Below, piece after piece: positions 5,674 through 44,260 of a stretch of 64,000 nucleotides of DNA. The notes below the pieces were generated by a model that saw nothing but the letters and a program-made list of their open reading frames with translations, was not told the origin of the DNA and made no database searches. The stretch comes from Halomonas smyrnensis AAD6. GTDB lineage: Bacteria; Pseudomonadota; Gammaproteobacteria; Pseudomonadales; Halomonadaceae. Location of the stretch: the NCBI RefSeq assembly GCF_000265245.1, contig NZ_AJKS02000010.1, forward strand, positions 1-64,000, written 5' to 3'. Position 1 is the stretch's first letter. Each line of letters starts with the position of its first letter. The position numbers and the translations under genes are program-made.

Positions 5674-7164
5674 ATGCCCACACTGCCGCGCCATGCCCCG
5701 ATCCACGAGCCGATCCGCCGCACCAAGATCGTCGCCACTCTCGGCCCCGCCAGCGACCGGGAGGGCGTGCTGGAGCAGATGATCGCCGCCGGCGTCGACG
5801 TGGTGCGCCTCAACTTCTCCCACGGCTCGGCGGACGACCATCGCCGCCGGCTAAGCGCGGTGCGCGAGATCGCCGCCCGACAGGGTCGCAGCGTCGCCGC
5901 CCTGGGCGACCTGCAGGGGCCGAAGATCCGCATCGCCCGCTTCACCGAGGGCAAGGTCGTGCTCGAGGAAGGCGCGCCCTTCGTCATCGACGTGGCCCTC
6001 GACGGCCAGGCCGGCGACGCCAGCCGCGTCGGCTGCGACTATCGCGAGCTGGCCGACGACGTGAGCGCCGGCGACCGCCTGCTGCTCGACGACGGCCGGG
6101 TGGTGCTCGACGTCTCCCGCGTCGACGGCAGCGCCATCCACACCACCGTGGTGGTGGGCGGCGAGCTGTCCAACAACAAGGGCATCAACAAGCAGGGCGG
6201 CGGGCTCTCCGCCCCGGCGCTGACCGACAAGGACAAGGCCGACCTCGAGACCGCCATGGCCATCGGCGTCGACTACCTGGCCGTGTCCTTCCCGCGCAGC
6301 GCCGCCGACATGCAGGAGGCCCGCGCGCTGCTGGGCGAGGCCGGTCGGGAGATCGGCCTGGTGGCCAAGCTCGAGCGCGCCGAGGCGGTGGCCGACGACG
6401 AAACCCTCGACGGCATCATCGAGGCCAGCGAGGCGGTGATGGTGGCCCGCGGCGATCTCGGCGTGGAGATCGGCGACGAGGCGCTGATCGGCACCCAGAA
6501 GCGCATCATCAAGCACGCCCGCAGCCACAACCGCGCGGTGATCACCGCCACCCAGATGATGGAGTCGATGATCGACTCGCCCTTGCCGACCCGCGCCGAG
6601 GTGTTCGACGTGGCCAACGCGGTGCTCGACGCCACCGACGCGGTGATGCTCTCCGCCGAGACCGCCGCCGGCGACTTCCCGGTCGAGACCGTGGAGGCCA
6701 TGGCCCGGGTGTGCCTGGGCGCCGAGCGCGAGCGCATCGCCCAGTCCTCCGGCCACCGCATCCACGAGGGCTTCTCGAAGATCGACGAGACCATCGCGCT
6801 GTCGGCGATGTACGCCGCCAACCACCTGTCGGGCGTGGCCGCCATCGCCTGCATGACCGCCACCGGCTACACCCCGCTGATCGCCTCGCGCATCCGTTCC
6901 GGGCTGCCGATCGTCGGCCTGGCACACAATCCGGTCGCCCAGCGGCGCATGGCGCTGTATCGCGGGGTGATCTCGCTGCCCTTCGACACCAGCGAGATGT
7001 CGGCCGCCGAGCTCAACGACCGTGCCATGGCGCTGCTGGTGGGGCAGGGCGTGGCCGAGCCGGGCGATCACGTCATCCTCACCCGCGGCGATCACATGAA
7101 CGCCCACGGCGGCACCAATACCCTGAAGATCCTCGACGTCAACGAGCGGCATCGCGACGGCTAG
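5674..7164 (+). CDS. pyk: Pyruvate kinase
   Basis: Converts phosphoenolpyruvate and ADP to pyruvate and ATP, the last step from glycerate in this operon. The 496-residue product resembles E. coli PykA more than PykF. It has [13 protein letters not shown] near residue 15, [25 protein letters not shown], the acid-base Lys in [11 protein letters not shown], the metal site [19 protein letters not shown] and [13 protein letters not shown]. The ATG at 5674 has only a weak ribosome site and overlaps the damaged end of the glycerate kinase gene, so translation is probably coupled to it. A terminator follows. As the last gene of a glyoxylate operon, it is probably a pathway-specific isozyme. Confidence 0.95.
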
Positions 7165-8156: not shown

Positions 8157-9401
8157 TCAGGCGCGGGAGGCCGCCTCGGCGCCGGCCTGGGCGCGACGCT
8201 CGCGGAAGGCGATCAGGAACAGCACCAGCACCGCCAGGGCGAAGGCCGCCGGGAACAGCCAGATGCCCTGCCAGTCGTGGCCGCCGTCGGCCAGCGTGTA
8301 GTGGTCGGTGACCTGGCCGGCGATCCAGAAGCCGATCAGCATGCCGACGCCGTAGGTGGCCAGGGTGATCATGCCCTGGGCGGCGCTCTTGAACCGCTCG
8401 CCGGCCTTGGAATCGGTGTAGATCTGCCCGGTGACGAAGAAGAAGTCGTAGCAGATGCCGTGCAGCGCGATGCCCAGCAGCAGCAGGTAGAGCTCTCCCT
8501 CGGCGTCGCCGAAGGCGAACATCGCGTAGCGCAGCGCCCAGGCCAGCATGCCGATCAGCAGCGTCTTCTTGATGCCGAAGCGGCCGATAAACAGCGGCAG
8601 CAGCAGCATGAACAGCACCTCGGAGGCCTGTCCCAGGGTCATCTTGCCGGTGGGATTGGCCACACCGACCTCGGCCAGGAAGGGGTTGGCGTTCTGATAG
8701 TAGAAGGCCAGCGGAATGCAGATCAGCACCGAGGCGGCGAAGAAGATCGCATAGTTGCGGTCCTTCAGCAGCGACAGGGCGTCGAGTCCCAGCACCTCGC
8801 GCAGGCCGGTCCTGCCCTGGCCTTTGGCCTTGGGCGGGGTGGCGGGCAGGGTGAAGCTGTACACGCCCAGCGCGAGAGAGGCGATCGCGCCCATCAGGAA
8901 GGTGTTGCGCAGCAGGCCCTCGCCGATACCGGCGGCGGAGTCCCAGGCGAACACGTAGCTGATGCCGAGGCCGGCGACGATCCAGCCGAGGGTGCCCCAC
9001 ACGCGGATGCGGGCGAACTCGATGGCCGGGTCGCTCAGCTGGCGGAACGAGACCGAGTTCACCAGCGCCAGGGTCGGCATGTAGAGGATCATGTAGGCCA
9101 GCACCAGCGGATAGAAGGCCGCGAAGTCCTCGGCCAGATAGAGCCCGACCATCAGCGCCGCGCCCAGCAGGTGCAGCACCCCGAGCAGGCGCTCGGCGTG
9201 GAAGTAGCGGTCGGCGATCAGGCCGATGATGAAGGGCGCGATGATCGCCCCCCAGGACTGGGTGGCGAAGGCCATCCCGATCTGGCCGCCGCTGGCCTCC
9301 AGGTTGCTGGCCAGGAAGGTGCCCAGGGTGACGAACCAGCCGCCCCAGATGAAGAACTGCAGGAACATCATCAGGCTCAGGCGCGAGCGTAGCAGTGACA
9401 T
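8157..9401 (-). CDS. MFS transporter, NupG-like nucleoside/sugar proton symporter family
   Basis: A 414-residue, roughly 12-helix inner-membrane protein. It begins with FLQFFIWGGWFVTLGTFLA and has the conserved IGLIADRYF and FARIRVWGTLGWI segments of the nucleoside:H+ symporter family (NupG/XapB). AAGGAA precedes the start. Its neighbours are sugar enzymes rather than nucleoside enzymes: it is the last gene of a leftward unit with a TIM-barrel isomerase and a Gfo/Idh/MocA oxidoreductase. I therefore infer import of a sugar, an oxidised sugar or a polyol made in the periplasm by the divergent genes. The substrate cannot be read from the sequence. Confidence 0.8.
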   Translation of the reverse strand: MSLLRSRLSLMMFLQFFIWGGWFVTLGTFLASNLEASGGQIGMAFATQSWGAIIAPFIIGLIADRYFHAERLLGVLHLLGAALMVGLYLAEDFAAFYPLVLAYMILYMPTLALVNSVSFRQLSDPAIEFARIRVWGTLGWIVAGLGISYVFAWDSAAGIGEGLLRNTFLMGAIASLALGVYSFTLPATPPKAKGQGRTGLREVLGLDALSLLKDRNYAIFFAASVLICIPLAFYYQNANPFLAEVGVANPTGKMTLGQASEVLFMLLLPLFIGRFGIKKTLLIGMLAWALRYAMFAFGDAEGELYLLLLGIALHGICYDFFFVTGQIYTDSKAGERFKSAAQGMITLATYGVGMLIGFWIAGQVTDHYTLADGGHDWQGIWLFPAAFALAVLVLFLIAFRERRAQAGAEAASRA

Positions 9402-9495: not shown

Positions 9496-10566
9496 CTAGC
9501 GCGCCAGCCCCAGGATGCGGCGATTGCGGGCCGGGCTGGTGTCCTGGCCGGCGAAGTCGTCGAAGGCGCGGCCGGCGCGGGTGATCAGGTGTTCGGCGAT
9601 GAAGGGCGCGCCCTCGGCGGCGCCCTGGGCGGCGTCCTTCAGGCAGCACTCCCATTCGAGCACCGCCCAGCCGTCGAAGCCGTACCGGGTCAGGCGGCTG
9701 AAGATGCCCTTGAAGTCGACCTGGCCGTCGCCCAGCGAGCGGAAGCGCCCGGGGCGATCGACCCAGCCCTGATAGCCGCCGTAGACGCCGCTGCGCGCGT
9801 CGGGGGTGAACTCGGCGTCCTTGACGTGGAACATGCCGATGCGCTCGTGGTAGCGATCGATGAAGCCCAGATAGTCGAGCCGCTGCAGCAGCAGGTGGCT
9901 CGGGTCGTAGAGGATCCTGGCCCGCGGATGATGATCCACCGCCTCGAGGAAGCGCTCGAAGGAGGCGCCGTCGTGCAGGTCCTCGCCGGGATGGATCTCG
10001 TAGCACAGGTCGACCCCGGCCTCCTCGAAGGCGTCGAGGATCGGCCGCCAGCGCCGGCCGAGCTCGGCGAAGCCCTCCTCGACCAGTCCGGCGGGGCGCT
10101 GCGGCCAGGGATAGAAGAAGGGCCACAGCAGGGCGCCGGAGAAGGTGGCGTGGGCCTCGAGCCCGAGCCGCCGGCTGGCCTTGGCCGCCAGCTTGAGCTG
10201 GGCGATGGCCCACTCGGTGCGGGCCTCGGGATCGCCATGCAGCTCGGCCGGGGCGAAGCCGTCGAACAGCTCGTCGAAGGCCGGGTGGACCGCCACCAGC
10301 TGGCCCTGCAGGTGGGTGGAGAGCTCGCTGATCTCGACCCCGGCCGCGGCGCAGCGGGCCTTGAGGTCGTCGCAGTAGGCCTGGCTATCGGCGGCGCGCT
10401 CGAGGTCGATGAAGCGCGGATCGTGGGTCGGCAGCTGGATGCCGCGATAGCCCTGCTCGGCGGCCCAGCGGGCGATGGCGTCGAGGCCGTCGAAGGGCGC
10501 CTCGTCGCCGATGAACTGGGCCAGGAAGATCGCCGGGCCGCGAATGCCGGAAGAGGTGTCGCTCAT
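9496..10566 (-). CDS. Sugar phosphate isomerase/epimerase family TIM-barrel protein
   Basis: A 356-residue xylose-isomerase-like TIM barrel without a signal peptide, so probably cytoplasmic. Likely divalent-metal ligands lie in CYEIHPGED, YDPSHL, FHVKDAEF and LEWECCLK. CGGAG precedes the ATG. It starts 12 bases after the Gfo/Idh/MocA gene and is presumably cotranscribed with it. Proteins of this type act on keto sugars, inositol derivatives or, as epimerases, on free sugars. Here it probably rearranges the sugar imported by the neighbouring MFS protein. No exact substrate can be assigned. Confidence 0.8.
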   Translation of the reverse strand: MSDTSSGIRGPAIFLAQFIGDEAPFDGLDAIARWAAEQGYRGIQLPTHDPRFIDLERAADSQAYCDDLKARCAAAGVEISELSTHLQGQLVAVHPAFDELFDGFAPAELHGDPEARTEWAIAQLKLAAKASRRLGLEAHATFSGALLWPFFYPWPQRPAGLVEEGFAELGRRWRPILDAFEEAGVDLCYEIHPGEDLHDGASFERFLEAVDHHPRARILYDPSHLLLQRLDYLGFIDRYHERIGMFHVKDAEFTPDARSGVYGGYQGWVDRPGRFRSLGDGQVDFKGIFSRLTRYGFDGWAVLEWECCLKDAAQGAAEGAPFIAEHLITRAGRAFDDFAGQDTSPARNRRILGLAR

Positions 10567-10578
10567 GGAAGGCTCCGT

Positions 10579-11739
10579 TCAGTCGATGGAGGGCAGGTCG
10601 GTCCAGCGGCTGCCGCCGGCCTGGCTCTGGGTGACCGCCTCGATGAAGGCCATGCCGCGCAGCCCCGAGGCCATGCCGGGCACGCCGGCGATGTCGCCGC
10701 GGTCGCCGCGCCGGATCGCCGCGGCGGCGTCGCCGTAGAGGTTGGCCAGCGCCTCGAGATAGCCCTCGGGGTGGCCGCCGGGCAGGCGCAGCCGCGACAG
10801 GGCCGCGTCGACCAGCTCGGGCTGGTCGATGCCGGCGCGCAGCACGCGCATCGGCGCGCCGCGCGAGCGGTGGACCAGGCTGTTGGGCTCCATCTGGCGC
10901 CATTCCAGGGCGCCGTCCTCGCCGTAGAGGCGCAGCTTCAGCGCGTTCTCCTCGCCGGTGCTGACCTGGCTGGCCATCAGGGTTCCGGAGGCCCCCTCGG
11001 CGGTGCGCAGCAGCACGTCGCCGTCGTCGTCCAGCCGCCGGCCGTCGACGTGGCTGCCGAGCGAGGCGCACAGCGCCTCGACGCGCTGCCCGGAGACGAA
11101 CTCGGCCAGGCCGAAGGCGTGAGTGCCGATGTCGGCCATGCAGCCGCTGGGGCCGGCCAGGGCCGGGTCGGTGCGCCATCCGGCCTGCTTGTTGCCCTGG
11201 GCCTCGAGGGTCTCGCCGAGCCAGCCCTGGGGATACTCGACGTGGATCTTGCGCAGCCGGCCGAGCGCGCCGGCGTCGACCATGGCGCGGGCCTGCCACA
11301 CCATCGGGTAGCCCAGATAGGTGTGGGCCAGGCCGTACAGGCCGCCGTGCTCGCGCCAGGTGGTCTCGAGGCCGCGGGCCTCGTCCAGCGACAGGGCGGC
11401 GGGCTTCTCGCAGAAGACGTGGAAGCCGGCGGCGAGGGCGGCCTCTGCGATCGGCACGTGCAGGTGATTGGGGGTGACGATCACCAGCAGCTGCATGCGC
11501 TGCTCGGCGGGCAGGGCGCGCTCGCCGTCCAGCAGGCGCTGCCAGTCCGCGTACAGGCGCGATGCCGCCACGTCGCAGGCGGCGCCGGTGCGGGCGTTGT
11601 TGTCGGCTTCGCGGCTGAAGGCGCCGCAGACCAGCTCGAAGTGGCCGTCGAGGTTGGCGGCCAGGCGATGGACCTGGCCGATGAAGGCGCCTTCGCCGCC
11701 GCCGACCATGCCCAGGCGGACTCTCGGGGTGGGGGACAT
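10579..11739 (-). CDS. Gfo/Idh/MocA family oxidoreductase
   Basis: A 386-residue NAD(P)-dependent sugar oxidoreductase. The Rossmann fold starts RLGMVGGGEGAFIG (about residues 8-21), the conserved EKP motif appears in VFCEKPAALS, and the second domain carries the HTYLGYP and DIGTHAFGLAEF segments. The start at 11739 has GGGAG upstream and matches the family N-terminus. It is the first gene of the leftward arm; a candidate LacI-type operator lies 34 bp upstream. Family members oxidise or reduce sugar hydroxyls, often at C3 of glycosides. I infer reduction of a 3-keto sugar, or the reverse, in the cytoplasm. Confidence 0.85.
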   Translation of the reverse strand: MSPTPRVRLGMVGGGEGAFIGQVHRLAANLDGHFELVCGAFSREADNNARTGAACDVAASRLYADWQRLLDGERALPAEQRMQLLVIVTPNHLHVPIAEAALAAGFHVFCEKPAALSLDEARGLETTWREHGGLYGLAHTYLGYPMVWQARAMVDAGALGRLRKIHVEYPQGWLGETLEAQGNKQAGWRTDPALAGPSGCMADIGTHAFGLAEFVSGQRVEALCASLGSHVDGRRLDDDGDVLLRTAEGASGTLMASQVSTGEENALKLRLYGEDGALEWRQMEPNSLVHRSRGAPMRVLRAGIDQPELVDAALSRLRLPGGHPEGYLEALANLYGDAAAAIRRGDRGDIAGVPGMASGLRGMAFIEAVTQSQAGGSRWTDLPSID

Positions 11740-11772
11740 CGATCGCTCCCGGATCGTGGGTGAATAACGGTG

Positions 11773-11788
11773 ATGTAACCGGTTACAT
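11773..11788. promoter_or_regulatory. LacI-type operator, left copy
   Basis: ATGTAACCGGTTACAT is a perfect 16-bp palindrome with the central CG typical of LacI-family operators. An identical copy lies at 11983-11998. The two centres are 210 bp apart, close to 20 helical turns. This copy is next to the Gfo/Idh/MocA promoter. Confidence 0.75.
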
Positions 11789-11980
11789 GCTGTGTTTCGC
11801 AACCTAGGGGACGCGGCGTGGGTGTCGCAATGCGACCAAAGGCTATGCGGCCAATGTCTAGTGCATGCCGGACGCCGCGCGCAAACGCCGCCATGCCGGG
11901 TCCCGGCACTCGTGCATCGGGTCCTGGAGGCGGCCGGAGAACCGGTCGATACGTTGCGGAAGCGAGAACGATGGCATATA

Positions 11981-12000
11981 CCATGTAACCGGTTACATGG
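11981..12000. promoter_or_regulatory. LacI-type operator, right copy
   Basis: A perfect 20-bp palindrome, CCATGTAACCGGTTACATGG, 58 bp upstream of the first exported TIM-barrel gene. A TATA-like stretch at 11977-11980 touches it. The LacI protein at 17115-18137 is the obvious candidate ligand. The other bases of this 319-bp divergent region show no gene I would defend. Confidence 0.78.
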
Positions 12001-12058
12001 TCGTCGGAAGCGGCCATGGCTCCCCGCTGAGCCCACTCGACACGGAGGCACGCCCGCC

Positions 12059-12943
12059 ATGAACAACAACACCGCACGCCCGCTCGCCGCCTTTCGCCGC
12101 CGCACGCTGCTGGCCTGTCTGGGGGCCGCCCTGGCGCTGCCGGGGCTGGCTTACGCCCAGTCTCCGGCCCCGGCGGCCTCGCCGGTGGCCGCCCAGATGT
12201 ACACCCTGCGCGATTTCGGCTCGCTGGAGGAGCAGTTCGCGGCCGTCGAGCGCGCCGGCATCGCCTCGGTGGAGCTGGTCGGCGACCAGGGCATCGAGGC
12301 CGAGGAGATGAACGCGCTGCTGGCCGAGCACGAGCTGTCGGTCAGTTCCAGCCACGTGCCCCTCGACGACCTGCGCCACGATCTCGACGACGTGGTCGAC
12401 TTCCACCGCGCGGTCGGCAACGACACCCTGGTGATCCCCTACCTGGCCGAGGAGGCGCGCCCCGACAGCGCCGAGGGCTGGCGGGTGCTCGGCGAGGAGA
12501 TCGGCGGCCTGGCCAGCCGACTCGCCGAGGACGGCATGCGCCTGGCCTATCACAACCATGACTTCGAGATGCGGACCTTCGACGACCGCACGGCGCTGGA
12601 GATCCTGATGCAGGCCGCCGGGCCCGAAGTGCTGGCGGAGATCGACCTGGCCTGGGTGGCCCGCGGCGGCCTGGACCCCGCCGACTACCTGGCGAACTTC
12701 GAGGGCCGACTGTTCGCCGTGCACGCCAAGGACAATGCCCCGGCCGGCACCGCGGAGGATGAGCGCGGCTTCGCCATTCCGGGGCAGGGCGTCCTCGACT
12801 GGGGCGAGATCCTGCCCGCCGCCCGCGAGGCCGGCGTTGAGGTCTACATCCTCGAGCACGATCAGCCGCGGGATGCCCAGGCGGTGATGACCGAGGGGCA
12901 TCGCTTCCTCGACGAGGCGCTCGCCGCCCTGCACCGCGAGTGA
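12059..12943 (+). CDS. Exported sugar phosphate isomerase/epimerase-like TIM-barrel protein
   Basis: A 294-residue protein whose first 40 residues form a signal peptide. FRRRTLLACLGAALALPGLAYAQ has consecutive arginines before the hydrophobic core, so Tat export is likely. The mature part is a small xylose-isomerase-like barrel with LAYHNHDFEM, EIDLAWVARGG, FAVHAKD and EHDQPRD, which carry the expected metal-binding His, Glu and Asp residues. GGAG at 12044-12047 sets this start; longer in-frame versions are not supported. It is the first gene of the rightward arm. Cluster context suggests periplasmic isomerisation or elimination on a keto-glycoside. The exact reaction is unknown. Confidence 0.82.
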   Translation: MNNNTARPLAAFRRRTLLACLGAALALPGLAYAQSPAPAASPVAAQMYTLRDFGSLEEQFAAVERAGIASVELVGDQGIEAEEMNALLAEHELSVSSSHVPLDDLRHDLDDVVDFHRAVGNDTLVIPYLAEEARPDSAEGWRVLGEEIGGLASRLAEDGMRLAYHNHDFEMRTFDDRTALEILMQAAGPEVLAEIDLAWVARGGLDPADYLANFEGRLFAVHAKDNAPAGTAEDERGFAIPGQGVLDWGEILPAAREAGVEVYILEHDQPRDAQAVMTEGHRFLDEALAALHRE

Positions 12944-12996
12944 GTGTCGCCGGTATTCCGCCGGTGTGAGACGGACGACGCGAGAGGGGCATCGCC

Positions 12997-13896
12997 ATGA
13001 TGAGGCATTCCATCGACAGGCGCGGCTTGCTGCGCCAGACCCTGACCGGTGCCGCGGGGCTCAGCCTGCTCGGCGGCCTCGGCGGGCCGGCCTTCGCCGC
13101 CGAGGCGGGCGCGTCCCGCCGGCTCGAGGGCAATATTCGCCACGCCGTGGCGCGCTGGACCTTCGATTTCCTGCCCCTGGAGTCGCTCTGCCGGGTGGCC
13201 GGGCGGCTGGGCATGTCGGCCATCGATCTGGTGGGGCCGGAGGAGTGGCCGGTGCTGAAGCGCCATGGCCTGGACTGCTCCATGTGCAATGGGGCGGAAC
13301 TGAGCCTCGAGGAGGGCTGGGGAGACGACCGCTACCACGCGGCGCTGGTCGAGCGCTATCTCCAGCATATCGATCGGGTCAGCGCGGCCGGCTATACCAA
13401 CCTGATCTGTTTCAGTGGCAATGCCCGCGGCATGTCGCCTGAGCAGGGGCTGGACAACGCCGAGGCCGGCCTGAAGCGCATCCTCGAGCGAGCCGAGCAA
13501 AAGGGCGTCGTGCTGCAGATGGAGCTGTTCAACAGCAAGGTCGATCACCCCGACTACCTCTGCGACAACTCCGCCTGGGGCATCGAGCTGTGTCGGCGCC
13601 TCGATTCCCCCAGTTTCAAGCTGCTCTATGACATCTATCACATGCAGATCAGCGAGGGAGATGTCATCAGGACGATTCGTGAGAATCACCAATATTTCGG
13701 CCACTACCACACCGCCGGGGTGCCCGGAAGGCATGAGATCGATGACAGCCAGGAGCTGAACTATCCGGCCATCTGCCGCGCGATACGCGATACCGGGTTC
13801 CAGGGCTATGTGGCCCAGGAGTTCCTGCCGGATCGAGAGAATGATCAAGCCAAGATCGAGTCACTCGAAGCGGCGGTTCGTCTCTGTGACGTGTGA
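12997..13896 (+). CDS. Tat-exported hydroxypyruvate-isomerase-like TIM-barrel protein
   Basis: A 299-residue protein with a convincing Tat signal: DRRGLLRQTLTGAAGLSLLGG, then an AFA cleavage region near residue 34. The mature domain keeps the Hyi-family catalytic sequence, with MELFNSKVDHPD, LLYDIYHMQISEGD, HYHTAGVPGRHE and AQEFLP. It aligns well over this part with the cytoplasmic Hyi encoded at 2147-2923. Hydroxypyruvate isomerisation in the periplasm is unlikely. Beside a GMC sugar dehydrogenase and a DUF1080 protein, a keto-sugar isomerase or lyase role is more plausible. GAGAGGGG precedes the start. Confidence 0.82.
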   Translation: MMRHSIDRRGLLRQTLTGAAGLSLLGGLGGPAFAAEAGASRRLEGNIRHAVARWTFDFLPLESLCRVAGRLGMSAIDLVGPEEWPVLKRHGLDCSMCNGAELSLEEGWGDDRYHAALVERYLQHIDRVSAAGYTNLICFSGNARGMSPEQGLDNAEAGLKRILERAEQKGVVLQMELFNSKVDHPDYLCDNSAWGIELCRRLDSPSFKLLYDIYHMQISEGDVIRTIRENHQYFGHYHTAGVPGRHEIDDSQELNYPAICRAIRDTGFQGYVAQEFLPDRENDQAKIESLEAAVRLCDV

Positions 13897-13924
13897 CGCA
13901 CTTCAACAATAAAGGACGCTATTC

Positions 13925-15613
13925 ATGGCAAACCATCACTACGATGCCATCGTGGTGGGTTCGGGCATCAGCGGTGGCTGGGCCGCCAAGGAACTCACCG
14001 AGAAGGGACTCAAGGTGCTGCTGCTGGAGCGCGGCCGCAACATCGAGCACATCAAGGACTACCACAACGCCCACAAGGAGGCCTGGGACTATCCCCACCG
14101 GGGCGAGCCGACCCGGCAGATGAAGGCGGACTATCCCGTCCTCAGCCGGGACTATACCTTGAACGAGCAGACCCTCGGCATGTGGGCCGACGAGCAGGCC
14201 AACCCCTATGTCGAGGAGAAGCGCTTCGACTGGTTTCGCGGCTATCACGTCGGCGGGCGCTCGCTGCTGTGGGGGCGCCACAGCTATCGCTGGTCGCCGA
14301 TGGACTTCGAGGCCAATCAGCGCGAGGGCGTGGCCGTCGACTGGCCGATCCGCTACGACGACCTGGCCCCCTGGTACGATTACGTGGAGCGTTTTGCCGG
14401 GATTTCCGGCAACCGTGACGGCCTGGAGGAGCTGCCGGACGGGCAGTTCATGCCGCCGGTTCCCCTCAACCAGGTGGAGAAGGACGTCGCCGCGCGCATC
14501 CAGCGCGCCTTCGGCGGTTCTCGCCACCTGATCAACAGCCGAGTGGCCAACATTACCCAGGCCAAGCCGGAGCAGAACCGGGGCAATTGCCAGTATCGCA
14601 ACAAGTGCTGGCTGGGCTGCCCGTTCGGTGCCTATTTCAGTACCCAGTCGGCGACGCTGCCCGCGGCGATGGCCACCGGCAACCTGACCCTGAGGCCCTT
14701 CTCCATCGCCACCCAGGTGCTCTATGACCGCGATCGGCGGCGCGCCCGGGGCGTCGAGGTGCTGGACGCCGAGAACGGCCAGACCTATGAATACACCGCC
14801 GATGTCGTCTTCCTCAACGCCTCCACCTTCAACTCCACCTGGGTGCTGATGAACTCGGCCACCGACGTCTGGCCGGGTGGCCTCGGCAGCAGCAGCGGCG
14901 AGCTCGGTCACAACGTCATGGACCACCATTTCCGTGCCGGGGCCGGCGGCGAGATCGAGGGCTATCGGGACACCTACTACTTCGGGCGACGCCCCGCGGG
15001 CTTCTACATTCCCCGCTTTCGCAACCTCGGGACGGAGGCGCGGGACTACCTGCGCGGCTTCGGCTACCAGGGCTCGGCCAGCCGCGAGCGCTGGGATCGC
15101 GCGGTGGCCGAGGTCAGCCATGGCACCGACCTCAAGCAGGCGCTGAGCCAGCCGGGTGGCTGGACCATCGGCATGACCGGCTTCGGCGAGATGCTCCCTC
15201 GCCACGACAATCGCATCGCCCTGGATCACGGGGTCACCGATGCCTGGGGGCTGCCGGTGCTGTCCATGAACGTGGAGCTCGGCGACAACGAGCGGGCGAT
15301 GCGCCGGGACATGGTCCAGGACGCCATCGATCTCCTCGAGGCCGGCGGCGCGACCAACGTCAAGGGCGAGGAGGGCGACTACGGCCCGGGCATGGGCATC
15401 CACGAGATGGGCACCGCCCGCATGGGCCGCGATCCCGCCACCTCGGTGCTCAACGCCCACAACCAGGTCTGGGACGCCCCCAATGTCTACGTCACCGACG
15501 GCGCCTGCATGACCTCGTCGTCCTGCGTCAATCCATCGCTGACCTACATGGCGCTGACCGCCCGGGCGGTCGACCACGCCGTGGCCGAGCTGAAGAGGGG
15601 GAACCTGGGATGA
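13925..15613 (+). CDS. GMC oxidoreductase, glucoside 3-dehydrogenase large subunit type
   Basis: A 562-residue FAD enzyme predicted to oxidise the C3 hydroxyl of glucosides to 3-keto-glucosides. It has the FAD motif VGSGISGG (residues 11-18), the active-site His493 in GIHEMGTARMG and the C-terminal Asn536 in SSCVNPSLTYMAL. Cysteines 222, 228 and 232 (C-x5-C-x3-C) lie where FAD glucose dehydrogenases of the Burkholderia type carry a 3Fe-4S cluster. It has no signal of its own and overlaps the next gene by ATGA. That neighbour has a Tat signal, so the pair is probably exported as a complex. No cytochrome c subunit gene is nearby. Confidence in the family is high; the substrate is inferred. Confidence 0.88.
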   Translation: MANHHYDAIVVGSGISGGWAAKELTEKGLKVLLLERGRNIEHIKDYHNAHKEAWDYPHRGEPTRQMKADYPVLSRDYTLNEQTLGMWADEQANPYVEEKRFDWFRGYHVGGRSLLWGRHSYRWSPMDFEANQREGVAVDWPIRYDDLAPWYDYVERFAGISGNRDGLEELPDGQFMPPVPLNQVEKDVAARIQRAFGGSRHLINSRVANITQAKPEQNRGNCQYRNKCWLGCPFGAYFSTQSATLPAAMATGNLTLRPFSIATQVLYDRDRRRARGVEVLDAENGQTYEYTADVVFLNASTFNSTWVLMNSATDVWPGGLGSSSGELGHNVMDHHFRAGAGGEIEGYRDTYYFGRRPAGFYIPRFRNLGTEARDYLRGFGYQGSASRERWDRAVAEVSHGTDLKQALSQPGGWTIGMTGFGEMLPRHDNRIALDHGVTDAWGLPVLSMNVELGDNERAMRRDMVQDAIDLLEAGGATNVKGEEGDYGPGMGIHEMGTARMGRDPATSVLNAHNQVWDAPNVYVTDGACMTSSSCVNPSLTYMALTARAVDHAVAELKRGNLG

Positions 15614-16185
15614 ATCGTCGCGAACTGCTCAAGATGATCGCCGTCGTCACCGGCACCGCGCTGGTCGGCGGCCAAGCCCTGACGGCCTTCGCCGTTGGCG
15701 GGGGCGAGGAGGCACTGACGGACGCGGACGTGCGCCTGCTCGACGAGGTGGCCGAGACCCTGCTGCCGCGCACCGAGACCCCGGGCGCGAAGGACGCCGA
15801 GGTCGGTGACTTCATGCGGGTGTTCGTGCGCGACTGCTACACCGCCGAACAGCAGGCGCGGTTCCGCGACGGCATCGCCCGGATCGAGGCGCACAGCCGC
15901 GCGGCCCATGGCGACGGCTTCCTGGCCCTGGACGCGCCGCGCCGCGGCGAGGTCGTGGCCGCCCTCGACCGCGAGGCTCGGGCGCGAATGGACGGCGAGG
16001 CCCGGGAATGGTCCCCCGCCGAGGGCGGGCCCCACGGCTTCACTCTGATCAAGCAGCTGACCCTGTTCGGCTTCTTCACCTCGAAGGCCGGCGGCACCGA
16101 GGTGCTGCGCTATGTGGCCATCCCCGGCCGCTACGACGGCGATCTGGCCTACCGGTCCGGCGAGCCGGCCTGGGCAACCACCTGA
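15610..16185 (+). CDS. Gluconate 2-dehydrogenase subunit 3 family protein (dehydrogenase small subunit)
   Basis: A 191-residue protein starting NRRELLKMIAVVTGTALVGG, a Tat signal with the twin arginines at positions 3-4. The mature part has the family segments LLDEVAETLLPRTETPGAKDAEV and FGFFTSKAGGTEVLRY. Subunits of this kind chaperone the partner GMC catalytic subunit through Tat export and help link it to an electron acceptor. Its ATG overlaps the GMC stop (ATGA), indicating translational coupling. Spacing and order match known FAD sugar dehydrogenase operons, apart from the missing cytochrome gene. Confidence 0.88.
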   Translation: MNRRELLKMIAVVTGTALVGGQALTAFAVGGGEEALTDADVRLLDEVAETLLPRTETPGAKDAEVGDFMRVFVRDCYTAEQQARFRDGIARIEAHSRAAHGDGFLALDAPRRGEVVAALDREARARMDGEAREWSPAEGGPHGFTLIKQLTLFGFFTSKAGGTEVLRYVAIPGRYDGDLAYRSGEPAWATT

Positions 16186-16256
16186 GCGCCTCCGGGCGCA
16201 TCCGGGCGCGGGCGTCACCGCCCGCGCGGCTCACGCCATGCGAGAGGAGACATCTT

Positions 16257-17015
16257 ATGCACAAGGGAATTTCTGCGGGCGCGCTGATCACCGGGCTGGC
16301 CGCCCTGGCGTCGACCGCTATCCAGGCCGACGCGCCCAGCGACGCCGAGCGGGCGGCCAGGACGGAGGTCTGGGAGCCGGCGCCGCCGGTGGTGGCGGCA
16401 CCGGCTGACGGCGTGCCGTCGGACGCCGTGGTGCTGTTCGACGGCACGGACCTGTCCGCCTGGGAAGGCGAGGAGGGCGGGACGGCCGGGTGGCGAGTCG
16501 AGGACGGCACCATGACGGTGGTGCCCGGCGCCGGCGGCATCCGTACCCGGGAATCGTTCTGCGACGCCCAGCTGCACCTGGAGTGGCGCGCCCCGGCCGA
16601 CATCGGCGGCTTCGACGGCCAGGATCGCGGCAACAGCGGCGTCTTCCTGCAGCAGCGCTACGAGGTCCAGGTGCTGGATTCCCACGACAACCCCACCTAC
16701 GCCAACGGCCAGGCGGCCTCGATCTACAAGCAGCACATGCCGCTGGTCAACGCCTCCCGGGACCCGGGCGAGTGGCAGGCCTACGATATCCTCTACACCG
16801 CGCCACGCTTCGACGAGGACGGCGAGCTTGACGCACCGGCCCACGTCACGGTGCTGCACAACGGCGTGCTGGTGCAGCATCACGCCACGATCCAGGGCAC
16901 CACCGAGTGGATCGGCGAGCCCTCCTACGACGAGGCTCACGGCTGCGCGCCGCTCGCCCTGCAGGATCACGACGCGGCAGTGAGCTTTCGCAACGTTTGG
17001 ATCAGAAGGCTCTAA
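16257..17015 (+). CDS. DUF1080 protein (3-keto-glycoside hydrolase/lyase-like), exported
   Basis: A 252-residue protein with a Sec-type signal (MHKGISAGALITGLAALASTAIQA). The DUF1080 jelly-roll domain follows, with VVLFDGTDLSAWEG, LHLEWRAP, GQDRGNSGVFLQQRYEVQVLDS and an ending in VSFRNVWIRRL. Members act on 3-keto-glycosides, cleaving the glycosidic bond after C3 oxidation. A strong purine-rich site (GAGAGGAGA) precedes the ATG at 16257. Lying directly after the C3 dehydrogenase pair, it probably cleaves their product in the periplasm. The choice between hydrolysis and beta-elimination cannot be made from sequence. Confidence 0.85.
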   Translation: MHKGISAGALITGLAALASTAIQADAPSDAERAARTEVWEPAPPVVAAPADGVPSDAVVLFDGTDLSAWEGEEGGTAGWRVEDGTMTVVPGAGGIRTRESFCDAQLHLEWRAPADIGGFDGQDRGNSGVFLQQRYEVQVLDSHDNPTYANGQAASIYKQHMPLVNASRDPGEWQAYDILYTAPRFDEDGELDAPAHVTVLHNGVLVQHHATIQGTTEWIGEPSYDEAHGCAPLALQDHDAAVSFRNVWIRRL

Positions 17016-17114: not shown

Positions 17115-18137
17115 ATGTCCAATATACGCAAGGTCGCCGAACTGGCGGGCGTCTCCGTGGCCACGGTGTCGCGGACCCTCAAGTCGCCGGATATCGTGTC
17201 GCCTGCCACCCGCGACAAGGTGCGCCGAGCCATCGAGGCCTCGGGCTACCGCCCCAACCAGATGGCCGTGCAGTTCCGCTCCCGGCGCAGCCACAACCTG
17301 GCGGTGCTGGTGCCGACCATCGCCAACACCTTCTTCGCCCGGGTGATCGCCGGGGTCCAGCAGGCGGCCCGTGAGCAGGGCTACGGCGTGCTGCTGTGCA
17401 ACACCCTGGGGCAGGAGGAGGACGAGATCCAGTACGCCGGCATGGTGGCCGCCCGCCAGGCCGATGGCGTCATCCAGCTGCGCGCCTTCAATCCCTTTCC
17501 GGACGATGCCGTCGAGCCGGGTCGGCCGCTGCCCATGGTCAACGCCTGTGAGGTGCTCGACGATGCCCCTTGCCCGACGCTACGCATCGACAATCGGGCG
17601 GCGGCGCGCACCCTCACCGAGCACCTGATCGCGTTGGGCCACCGGCGCATCGCCATGATCCAGGGGCCGCGGCGCAGCCCACTGACTCGCGATCGCGTGG
17701 CGGGCTATCGCGATGCGCTGGTGGCCGCGGGCATCGAGCCCGACGAGACCCTGCTGTGCCCCGGCGACTTCACCCCGGCCTCCGGGCATGCGGCGGCGGG
17801 CAGCCTGCTGGCCGTCGGGGTGCCGCCGACCGCGATCTTCTGCGAGAGTGACGAGATGGCCATCGGCGCCATCAGCCGCCTGCGGCAGGCGGGGCTGTCC
17901 GTGCCCGCCGATGTCTCGGTGGCCGGCTTCGACGATATCGCCTTCGCCTCCTACAGCGACCCGGCGCTGACCACCATCGCCCAGCCCGCCGAGGCCTGCG
18001 GACGTCGCGCTGTGGAGATGCTGATCGCTATCCTGGAGGGGCGCGGCGAGGTCGCGCCCAGGGTCGTGCTGCCCCACGAGCTGGTGATTCGCGACAGCAC
18101 CGCGCCGCCCCGCGACGGCATCCGGGACCGCGCATAG
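17115..18137 (+). CDS. LacI family transcriptional regulator of the keto-glycoside locus
   Basis: A 340-residue LacI/GalR protein. The HTH is IRKVAELAGVSVATVSRTLKSPDIVSPATRDKV (residues 4-36), with a hinge helix near 50-60 and a periplasmic-binding-like ligand domain to the end, including GFDDIAFASYSDPALTTI. It closes the rightward sugar arm, 99 bp after the DUF1080 gene. It is the best candidate to bind the two ATGTAACCGGTTACAT palindromes in the divergent promoter. No copy of that site lies immediately upstream of this gene. Confidence 0.88.
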   Translation: MSNIRKVAELAGVSVATVSRTLKSPDIVSPATRDKVRRAIEASGYRPNQMAVQFRSRRSHNLAVLVPTIANTFFARVIAGVQQAAREQGYGVLLCNTLGQEEDEIQYAGMVAARQADGVIQLRAFNPFPDDAVEPGRPLPMVNACEVLDDAPCPTLRIDNRAAARTLTEHLIALGHRRIAMIQGPRRSPLTRDRVAGYRDALVAAGIEPDETLLCPGDFTPASGHAAAGSLLAVGVPPTAIFCESDEMAIGAISRLRQAGLSVPADVSVAGFDDIAFASYSDPALTTIAQPAEACGRRAVEMLIAILEGRGEVAPRVVLPHELVIRDSTAPPRDGIRDRA

Positions 18138-43210: not shown

Positions 43211-44260
43211 TCAGGGACAGGTTTCGCCGATCAGCAGCTCGGTGGTGAGCAGGCGGGGCGTGGCCGGCTCAAGCCCCAGCACCATGCGGGCCGCGATGCG
43301 CCCTTTCTCGACGCTGTCCTGGCGCACCGTGGTCAGTCGCGGCGAGCGGTACTGGCCCTCGGCGATGCCGTCGAAGCCGGTGATGCGCAGGTCCTCGGGA
43401 ATGCGCAGGCCACGCCGCTCGGCCAGGGTCAGTACCGTCAGGGCGATGCGGTCGGACATGCACAGCAGCAGGTCGGGACGCTCCTCGTCGGGAAGATCGA
43501 GGATTCCCTCGATCACCGGCGTGCAGACCTCGTGGGTGTTCTCCTCCACGTTCCACATCGGCACCGCCGCGGCGTCGAGGCCGTGCTCGTCGAAGGCCCG
43601 ATAGAAGCCGTCCAGGCGAGCGCGGGTGATGGTCCGACTGGCCGACAGCAGGGTCTGTCCGGGGCCGATGCGGCCGTTGCAGGCCTGTTCGGTGAGGCGC
43701 AGGTTGATGATGCCGGCGCGATGCGGCGGAGTCCTCAGCGCATGGCAGGCGATGGCGTGGGCCGCGGGTTCGTTATCCACGTGGACGCTGGCCTGGCCCG
43801 AGATGTCGAAGTCCACCGCCACCTGAGGGTGCTGCGAGGGCAGGTCGTCGAGCAGCGAGGGGCTGGGCATCAGGCCGTAGACGATGAAACCGTCGGCGAT
43901 GCTGGCCGAGCCCGGCATTCTATCGTTTGCCTGGCGCCCGGATAGCAGCAGAAGAGTGTGGCCGTGGGCGTCCAGCACCTCGGCGATGCCCGACAGCAGT
44001 TCGCTGGCCACCGCATCGTTCAGGCTGTAGGTCAGGCTCTCTGCGAGCAGTACCGCGACGATCTGCGAGCGGCCGGTACGCAGGCTGCGTGCCTTGGCGT
44101 CGGGGCCGCGGTAGCCCAGCCGGCGGGCCTCGGCGAGGATCCGTTCGCGCAGGTCGTGAGACAGCTGGTCCGGGCGGTTGAAGGCGTTGGACACGCTGGC
44201 CGTGGACACGCCGAGGTGTTGGGCCAGCTCCTTCAGGGTGATGCGGCGTGACGAAGACAC
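43211..44260 (-). CDS. LacI family regulator of the alpha-glucoside regulon
   Basis: A 349-residue LacI/GalR regulator. The HTH is ITLKELAQHLGVSTASVSNAFNRPDQLS (residues 7-34), followed by a hinge and a sugar-binding-type domain ending GFDGIAEGQYRSPRLTTVRQDS. The start codon is GTG. It lies downstream of the alpha-glucosidase operon but has its own upstream region with CTGAATCGATTTAG at 44300-44313. Related palindromes flank the promoters of the ABC importer and the porin. It is the likely repressor of the whole maltose or alpha-glucoside system. The inducer is probably an alpha-glucoside, which is inference. Confidence 0.88.
   Translation of the reverse strand: MSSSRRITLKELAQHLGVSTASVSNAFNRPDQLSHDLRERILAEARRLGYRGPDAKARSLRTGRSQIVAVLLAESLTYSLNDAVASELLSGIAEVLDAHGHTLLLLSGRQANDRMPGSASIADGFIVYGLMPSPSLLDDLPSQHPQVAVDFDISGQASVHVDNEPAAHAIACHALRTPPHRAGIINLRLTEQACNGRIGPGQTLLSASRTITRARLDGFYRAFDEHGLDAAAVPMWNVEENTHEVCTPVIEGILDLPDEERPDLLLCMSDRIALTVLTLAERRGLRIPEDLRITGFDGIAEGQYRSPRLTTVRQDSVEKGRIAARMVLGLEPATPRLLTTELLIGETCP

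Follow-up and report, generated by a model that had tools for sequence, protein, structure and literature searches.

The intergenic region analyzed here contains two identical copies of a perfect 16-bp palindrome, ATGTAACCGGTTACAT, which are very probably operators of the LacI-family repressor encoded at 17115-18137, judging from where this sequence occurs in related genomes. The preferred reading, to which we give roughly three chances in four, is that they are two separate operators of this repressor, each of which would block the promoter of its own operon, and that the 210-bp spacing results from the two operons becoming neighbors. Throughout, the window is the whole 64,000-nt stretch of Halomonas smyrnensis AAD6 DNA that was analyzed, and its features are collected in Table 1.

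Table 1. Genes, predicted operators and putative promoters of the divergent sugar operons (positions in the window).
Feature	Position	Strand	Domains and remarks
MFS transporter, nucleoside:H+ symporter family	8157..9401	-	PF03825
TIM1, xylose-isomerase-like TIM-barrel protein	9496..10566	-	PF01261
Gfo/Idh/MocA oxidoreductase (Gfo)	10579..11739	-	PF01408, PF22725, PF02894
Predicted operator 1, ATGTAACCGGTTACAT	11773..11788	.	33 nt upstream of the predicted Gfo/Idh/MocA start; same site before Gfo in relatives
Putative Gfo-arm promoter	11801..11830	-	TTGCGA (11830-11825), 18 nt, TAGGTT (11806-11801); ends 12 nt before operator 1
Putative cassette-arm promoter	11954..11982	+	TTGCGG (11954-11959), 17 nt, TATACC (11977-11982); abuts operator 2
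Predicted operator 2, ATGTAACCGGTTACAT	11983..11998	.	60 nt upstream of the predicted TIM-barrel (TIM2) start; site with 0-1 mismatch before the cassette in relatives
TIM2, TIM-barrel protein, first right-arm gene	12059..12943	+	PF01261; N-terminal signal-like segment by eye
TIM3, TIM-barrel protein	12997..13896	+	PF01261; missing in three sister species with paired operators
GMC oxidoreductase	13925..15613	+	PF00732, PF05199
Gluconate 2-dehydrogenase subunit 3 family	15610..16185	+	PF13618
DUF1080, 3-keto-disaccharide hydrolase domain protein	16257..17015	+	PF06439; start codon picked by eye in ORF 16008-17015
LacI-family repressor, 340 aa	17115..18137	+	PF00356, PF13377; helix GVSVATVSR; without tetramerization tail

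The paired palindrome and its surroundings

The preliminary description of this DNA had reported two identical 16-bp palindromes 210 bp apart, and both copies are indeed present, with a start-to-start spacing of 210 bp. The palindromy of operator 2 extends into its flanks to a perfect 22 bp, an extension that operator 1 does not share. Allowing up to 3 mismatches, the window holds two matches to ATGTAACCGGTTACAT, whereas 100 shuffles of the window averaged 0.04 and none of them reached two or more. There is no further exact copy in the genome (a 3.56-Mb assembly of 33 contigs, 95.93% complete), where the third match within 3 mismatches is a single 3-mismatch site on a different contig, and among the six perfect 16-bp palindromes of the window ATGTAACCGGTTACAT alone is present twice. 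The shuffles, the genome-wide rarity and the palindrome count rule out a chance origin of the pair. The comparison with plasmid records returned none that resembles the intergenic region.

The predicted starts of the divergent genes, at 11739 (-) and 12059 (+), leave a gap of 319 bp (11740-12058), in which the two sites lie 34-49 and 61-76 bp upstream of their respective starts. The usual LacI-family site is described in the main text of Ravcheev et al. (2014, PMC4052901) as a 16-nt even palindrome with a central CG, located 30-140 bp before the start. ATGTAACCGGTTACAT is an even palindrome (within 16-22 nt) with a central CG, and both copies fall within the range of approximately 30-140 bp before the start codon.

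The left arm of the predicted divergent operons consists of the Gfo, TIM1 and MFS genes, and the right arm of TIM2, TIM3, GMC, subunit 3 and DUF1080, with the LacI-family gene at its far end. We infer that the GMC oxidoreductase is the large subunit of a glycoside 3-dehydrogenase and the subunit 3 protein its small subunit, and the Gfo/Idh/MocA product is possibly a 3-keto-sugar reductase. The set resembles the 3-keto-glycoside cluster (lacABC/DUF1080) of Caulobacter crescentus in its dehydrogenase, DUF1080 protein, epimerases, reductase and transporter. In Caulobacter, lactose is thought to be oxidized to 3'-ketolactose and then hydrolyzed, the epimerases, reductase and transporter are encoded near the cluster, and a similar cluster is named for Halomonas titanicae BH1 (PMC9007349); locus L012 of our comparison set is that of Vreelandella titanicae BH1. 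The main text of that paper does not contain the term “LacI” and does not cover regulation in Halomonas.

One site beside each promoter had also been claimed. An operator does adjoin each divergent arm, but the promoters themselves are only weak predictions: the score of the putative Gfo-arm promoter (7 of 12 matches) was reached by 141 of 300 shuffles and that of the cassette arm, also 7 of 12, by 136 of 300. A scan for consensus promoters gave 0 hits, so the promoter calls rely on the recurrence of their positions among relatives. At 20 of 25 Gfo-side loci, the highest-scoring pair consists of a TTGA(C/T) hexamer followed after 16-18 nt by a TA-T hexamer that ends 6-13 nt before the operator; the exceptions are the window, L004, L005, L014 and L024, and the element in the window aligns by eye with the TTGAC-N17/18-TAnnTT of relatives. 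On the cassette side, 7 of 16 loci, counting the window, have a TTGC-N17-TA that ends 0-1 nt ahead of the operator; the score at one of the cassette loci (L157) was reached by all 300 of 300 shuffles. With promoters at these positions, a dimer on each site would cover the transcription start of its own promoter. A 13-bp palindrome, GTCGCAATGCGAC, lies within 11824-11850 and overlaps the putative Gfo -35 element, and a block next to it, e.g., CCTTTGTCGCATTGAC on the Gfo strand, recurs by eye in many relatives; this neighborhood may bind an activator.

The repressor and its probable sites in related genomes

The protein encoded at 17115-18137 carries the LacI helix-turn-helix (PF00356, 59.1 bits) and the periplasmic-binding-protein-like core (PF13377, 149.1 bits), both above cut-off. 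None of the 20 named NCBIfam LacI-family regulators listed (CytR, RbsR, GntR, GalR, and others) reaches its cut-off with this protein, the best being CytR with 296 bits vs. a cut-off of 436. Every one of the 27 proteins read has the same recognition helix, GVSVATVSR, and helices of this type are like those of E. coli GalR and CcpA. The window contains one more LacI-family gene, at 44108-44239 (-), whose recognition helix is different.

Across 275 genomes of the family, the exact ATGTAACCGGTTACAT occurs in 39 and an ortholog of the repressor (E<=1e-80, with 7 candidates scored per genome among the matches listed) in 46, and the two occur together in 38, i.e., in 38 of the 39 exact-site genomes (Fisher p=1.5e-37, a value overstated by the kinship of the relatives). 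Eight genomes have the ortholog without the exact site, and seven of these carry a version with 1-2 mismatches near the LacI gene (L160-L166). In the eighth, G001 (coordinates match Aidingimonas halophila, L019), the genome-wide search covered the exact site only, and neither the L019 nor the L020 LacI locus contains a site within 4 mismatches in its 21 kb. In G002 (coordinates match Aidingimonas lacisalsi, L020), contig 12 carries the LacI gene and contig 1 the operator that precedes TIM2/TIM3, and therefore the link between regulator and operator is not merely positional. Of 48 exact sites, 47 adjoin the LacI gene, the Gfo/TIM1 operon or the TIM2/TIM3-GMC cassette; 35 were inspected (the window's two and 33 fetched sites, from the 29 loci L084-L112 and the 4 further sites L150-L153, 32 of them positive), and 13 were placed beside LacI by coordinates.

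Isolated sites are the norm among the relatives examined. The motif scan of named loci covered L004-L029 of the LacI loci, apart from the 54 distant relatives L030-L083 (35-38% identity), and in 24 of these 26 loci a site with 0-2 mismatches, exact in 20, lies upstream of Gfo, TIM1 or LacI. The site-bearing loci include those of Pseudomonas mandelii and P. fluorescens, and the nearest named relatives of the window's LacI locus are Halomonas species. No second site with up to 4 mismatches is found within 1 kb in 22 of the 24, and in most relatives examined operator 1 stands alone, flanked by the Gfo operon (in L022 by TIM1) and a divergent LacI gene. Second exact sites do occur before TIM2/TIM3, elsewhere in the genome, in seven genomes (G037, G041, G044, G048, G052, G064, and G101), and five named loci (L008, L010, L013, L017, and L029) have a cassette site with one mismatch at a distance of 8-10 kb. 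The search for pairs, limited to center spacings of 195-225 bp, found four of the 275 genomes (that of the window, G057, G062, and G077), all with exactly 210 bp, and exact-site coordinates reveal no further genome among the 275 with two exact sites up to 1 kb apart. The close pair probably arose when the two operons became neighbors.

Several of these loci differ in gene content. The TIM3 region (12921-13923) is present in the window, and L004, L005 and G062 lack it in an arrangement that is otherwise the same. At L005 5647-10000, an insertion of approximately 4.25 kb separates DUF1080 from LacI, and the LacI start is partially repeated at 5751-5918. At L006 3843-10000 (Halomonas maura), the gap between Gfo and LacI is about 6 kb and two M16-peptidase-like genes replace the sugar cassette. 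At L029 70-10977 (Halomonas olivaria TYRC17), TIM1, TIM2, GMC, subunit 3, DUF1080 and LacI appear to be in frame-shifted pieces, perhaps because of sequencing error.

Beyond the family, 18 of 390 sampled genomes of the order carry ATGTAACCGRTTACAT, four of them being family members. One region was fetched for each of the remaining 14 (the second motif sites of G281 and G473 thus fall outside this count), and the Gfo/TIM1 pair is beside the site in five and absent from beside it in nine. Those five (L175, L176, L177, L184, and L185) come from two other families within the order and have this same operator ahead of Gfo-TIM1, and therefore the regulon reaches at least two other families; the other nine mean that the site is not exclusive to the regulon and that similar sites seem to serve other regulators. 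L176 has two sites, separated by 7 kb, before separate genes.

That the sites are LacI-family operators owned by the repressor at 17115-18137, as had been proposed, is supported by the co-occurrence, the linkage and the invariant recognition helix. The genome encodes seven LacI-family genes, and ownership by a different one of these proteins would be in line with the apparent use of the same site by other regulators outside the family and with G128, the only genome with an exact site and no ortholog, in which the site adjoins a LacI paralog of 35% identity. We consider this very improbable given the co-occurrence with the ortholog in 38 of 39 genomes and the linkage in most genomes, and none of the five paralogs read, out of six (L172 being the other), has the SVATVSR helix.

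Independent operators or a loop

In the mechanism that we favor, a repressor dimer on each palindrome would block RNA polymerase at the promoter of that operon. In the TIM2-TIM3-GMC-subunit 3-DUF1080 operon the putative -10 element is directly followed by operator 2, and in the Gfo-TIM1-MFS operon operator 1 comes shortly after the putative -10 element; since each operator adjoins its own putative promoter, local blocking would suffice. A sugar-derived inducer would free both operators, and the likeness to the Caulobacter cluster points to a 3-keto sugar, or a compound formed from one, as the probable inducer. The 210-bp spacing would then reflect two members of the regulon, apart in other relatives, having become divergent neighbors in a small clade. 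A bridging loop may form and would not be required.

The preliminary description had instead seen in the pair the classic geometry of a LacI-family repression loop that shuts off both arms together. Two identical operators 210 bp apart, with a LacI-family protein encoded in the same cluster, do fit a Lac-type loop held by a tetrameric repressor. The alignment of the protein at 17115-18137 with E. coli LacI, however, ends at LacI residue 333 of 360 and leaves 7 further residues of the protein, and 26 of the 27 proteins read are 331-341 aa long (that of L029 is shortened by a frame break). The C-terminal tetramerization helix of LacI lies beyond residue ~340, and therefore the tetramerization segment is absent; with no room for this helix, a loop by a tetramer is rejected as very improbable. 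The classic geometry thus fails on the missing segment, and single sites being the rule in the relatives examined also speaks against it.

The accompanying claim that the sites are 20 turns apart and on the same face of the DNA is correct as arithmetic at 10.5 bp per turn (20.0 turns), but the phase depends on the helical repeat. The in vivo repeats fitted to lac data and reported in PMC1762422 are 11.60, 11.08 and 10.95 bp per turn, at which 210 bp corresponds to 18.10, 18.95 and 19.18 turns, and at 11.3 bp per turn the sites would be out of phase (18.58 turns). Of the repeats between 10.4 and 11.7, 55% put 210 bp within a quarter turn of phase, such that the helical phase of the two operators is compatible with a loop rather than established.

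A loop need not involve a tetramer. GalR is described as binding as a dimer and looping with HU in a phase-sensitive manner (PMC4693257), and dimers on the two operators here might likewise touch, perhaps with the aid of an architectural protein such as HU, to form a 210-bp loop that shuts both arms. In that case, a new divergent control unit would have come into being in the four-species clade when two 3-keto-sugar operons were joined: the dimer-only repressor would bridge the operators at ~19-20 turns, selection would have held the 210 bp while the DNA between was rewritten, and the loop would have evolved from single-operator ancestors. We regard this as unlikely, although it has several points in its favor: the two putative promoters are enclosed by the operators, which is also the case in gal, the spacing is within ~0.2 turn of phase at 10.5, 10.95, 11.08 and 11.6 bp per turn, and it is exactly 210 bp in all four paired species. 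Relative to the window, 53 of the 194 inter-operator bases differ (ungapped) in L004 (G057), 63 in G062 and 77 in L005 (G077), and among the noncoding segments compared this DNA has the highest substitution rate, yet all four species have kept its net length, something that a model of purely independent sites would not predict. The other noncoding segments compared have often changed length relative to the window (6 of 9 in L004, 6 of 9 in G062, and 7 of 8 in G077).

Several observations weigh against reading this as the trace of a loop. Single sites are the rule, and the pair is not kept across the relatives. The four paired species are close kin and amount to about two independent lineages for the right half, where the right-hand 84 bp of the window is a different version (39 of 84 positions identical at zero offset, the next best offset giving 30 of 80) with a break near 11895. 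Pairwise alignments contain 3-5 cancelling gap events between the operators, so zero net length change need not equal zero indels, although the multiple alignment has no gaps there; the nearest other segments substitute only slightly less (e.g., 15/60 vs. 50/194 in G062). Repression by looping in gal is reported to hold up to 19 turns and to be reduced beyond (PMC4693257), phase would be lost at repeats such as 11.3, the intergenic region contains no IHF consensus, and A/T runs of at least 4 are absent between the operators. The unchanged 210 bp is accordingly only a mild hint in favor of a spacing constraint, because there are about two independent lineages and because limits on where each promoter can lie could account for some of the unchanged length. 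Where the likeness of the window to the sister species ends, a 15-bp inverted repeat, TGCCGGGTCCCGGCA, lies at 11894-11908, and this position is a possible recombination junction.

Known systems and significance

Among described systems, the local regulons of LacI-family proteins (Ravcheev et al., 2014, PMC4052901) share with this locus the 16-nt even palindrome with a central CG at 30-140 bp before the start, the sugar genes and a regulator encoded in the cluster; here the regulator gene instead occupies the distal end of one arm. The main text of that work makes no mention of Halomonas. The GalR repressosome of E. coli gal is similar in having a dimer-type repressor and operators flanking promoters, and differs in that its operators are 113 bp apart vs. 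210 bp between divergent operons here, with a loop and HU documented for gal (PMC4693257). E. coli lac also has a LacI-family repressor and an operator near the transcription start, a position that would hold here if the putative promoters are correct; it differs in the tetramer loop, the tail being present there and missing here, and in the single operators found in most relatives examined here. None of the papers searched by text contains the operator string ATGTAACCGGTTACAT. The passages considered in PMC5507952 do not describe the regulon, and its Supplementary Table S2 of Halomonas regulons may contain it.

The locus is very probably a case of ordinary LacI-type regulation with operators brought together by operon rearrangement. 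For an oxidative glycoside (3-keto sugar) pathway, the analysis provides a likely regulator, an operator sequence and a regulon of two operons, and this assignment covers the Halomonas relatives and the two Pseudomonas loci examined. The single operators of most relatives and the 210-bp pair of the small clade offer a natural comparison for asking whether the operator pairs of joined operons gain looping; if a loop does form, the locus would show, in a natural case, how a repression loop can evolve where the ancestors had single operators.
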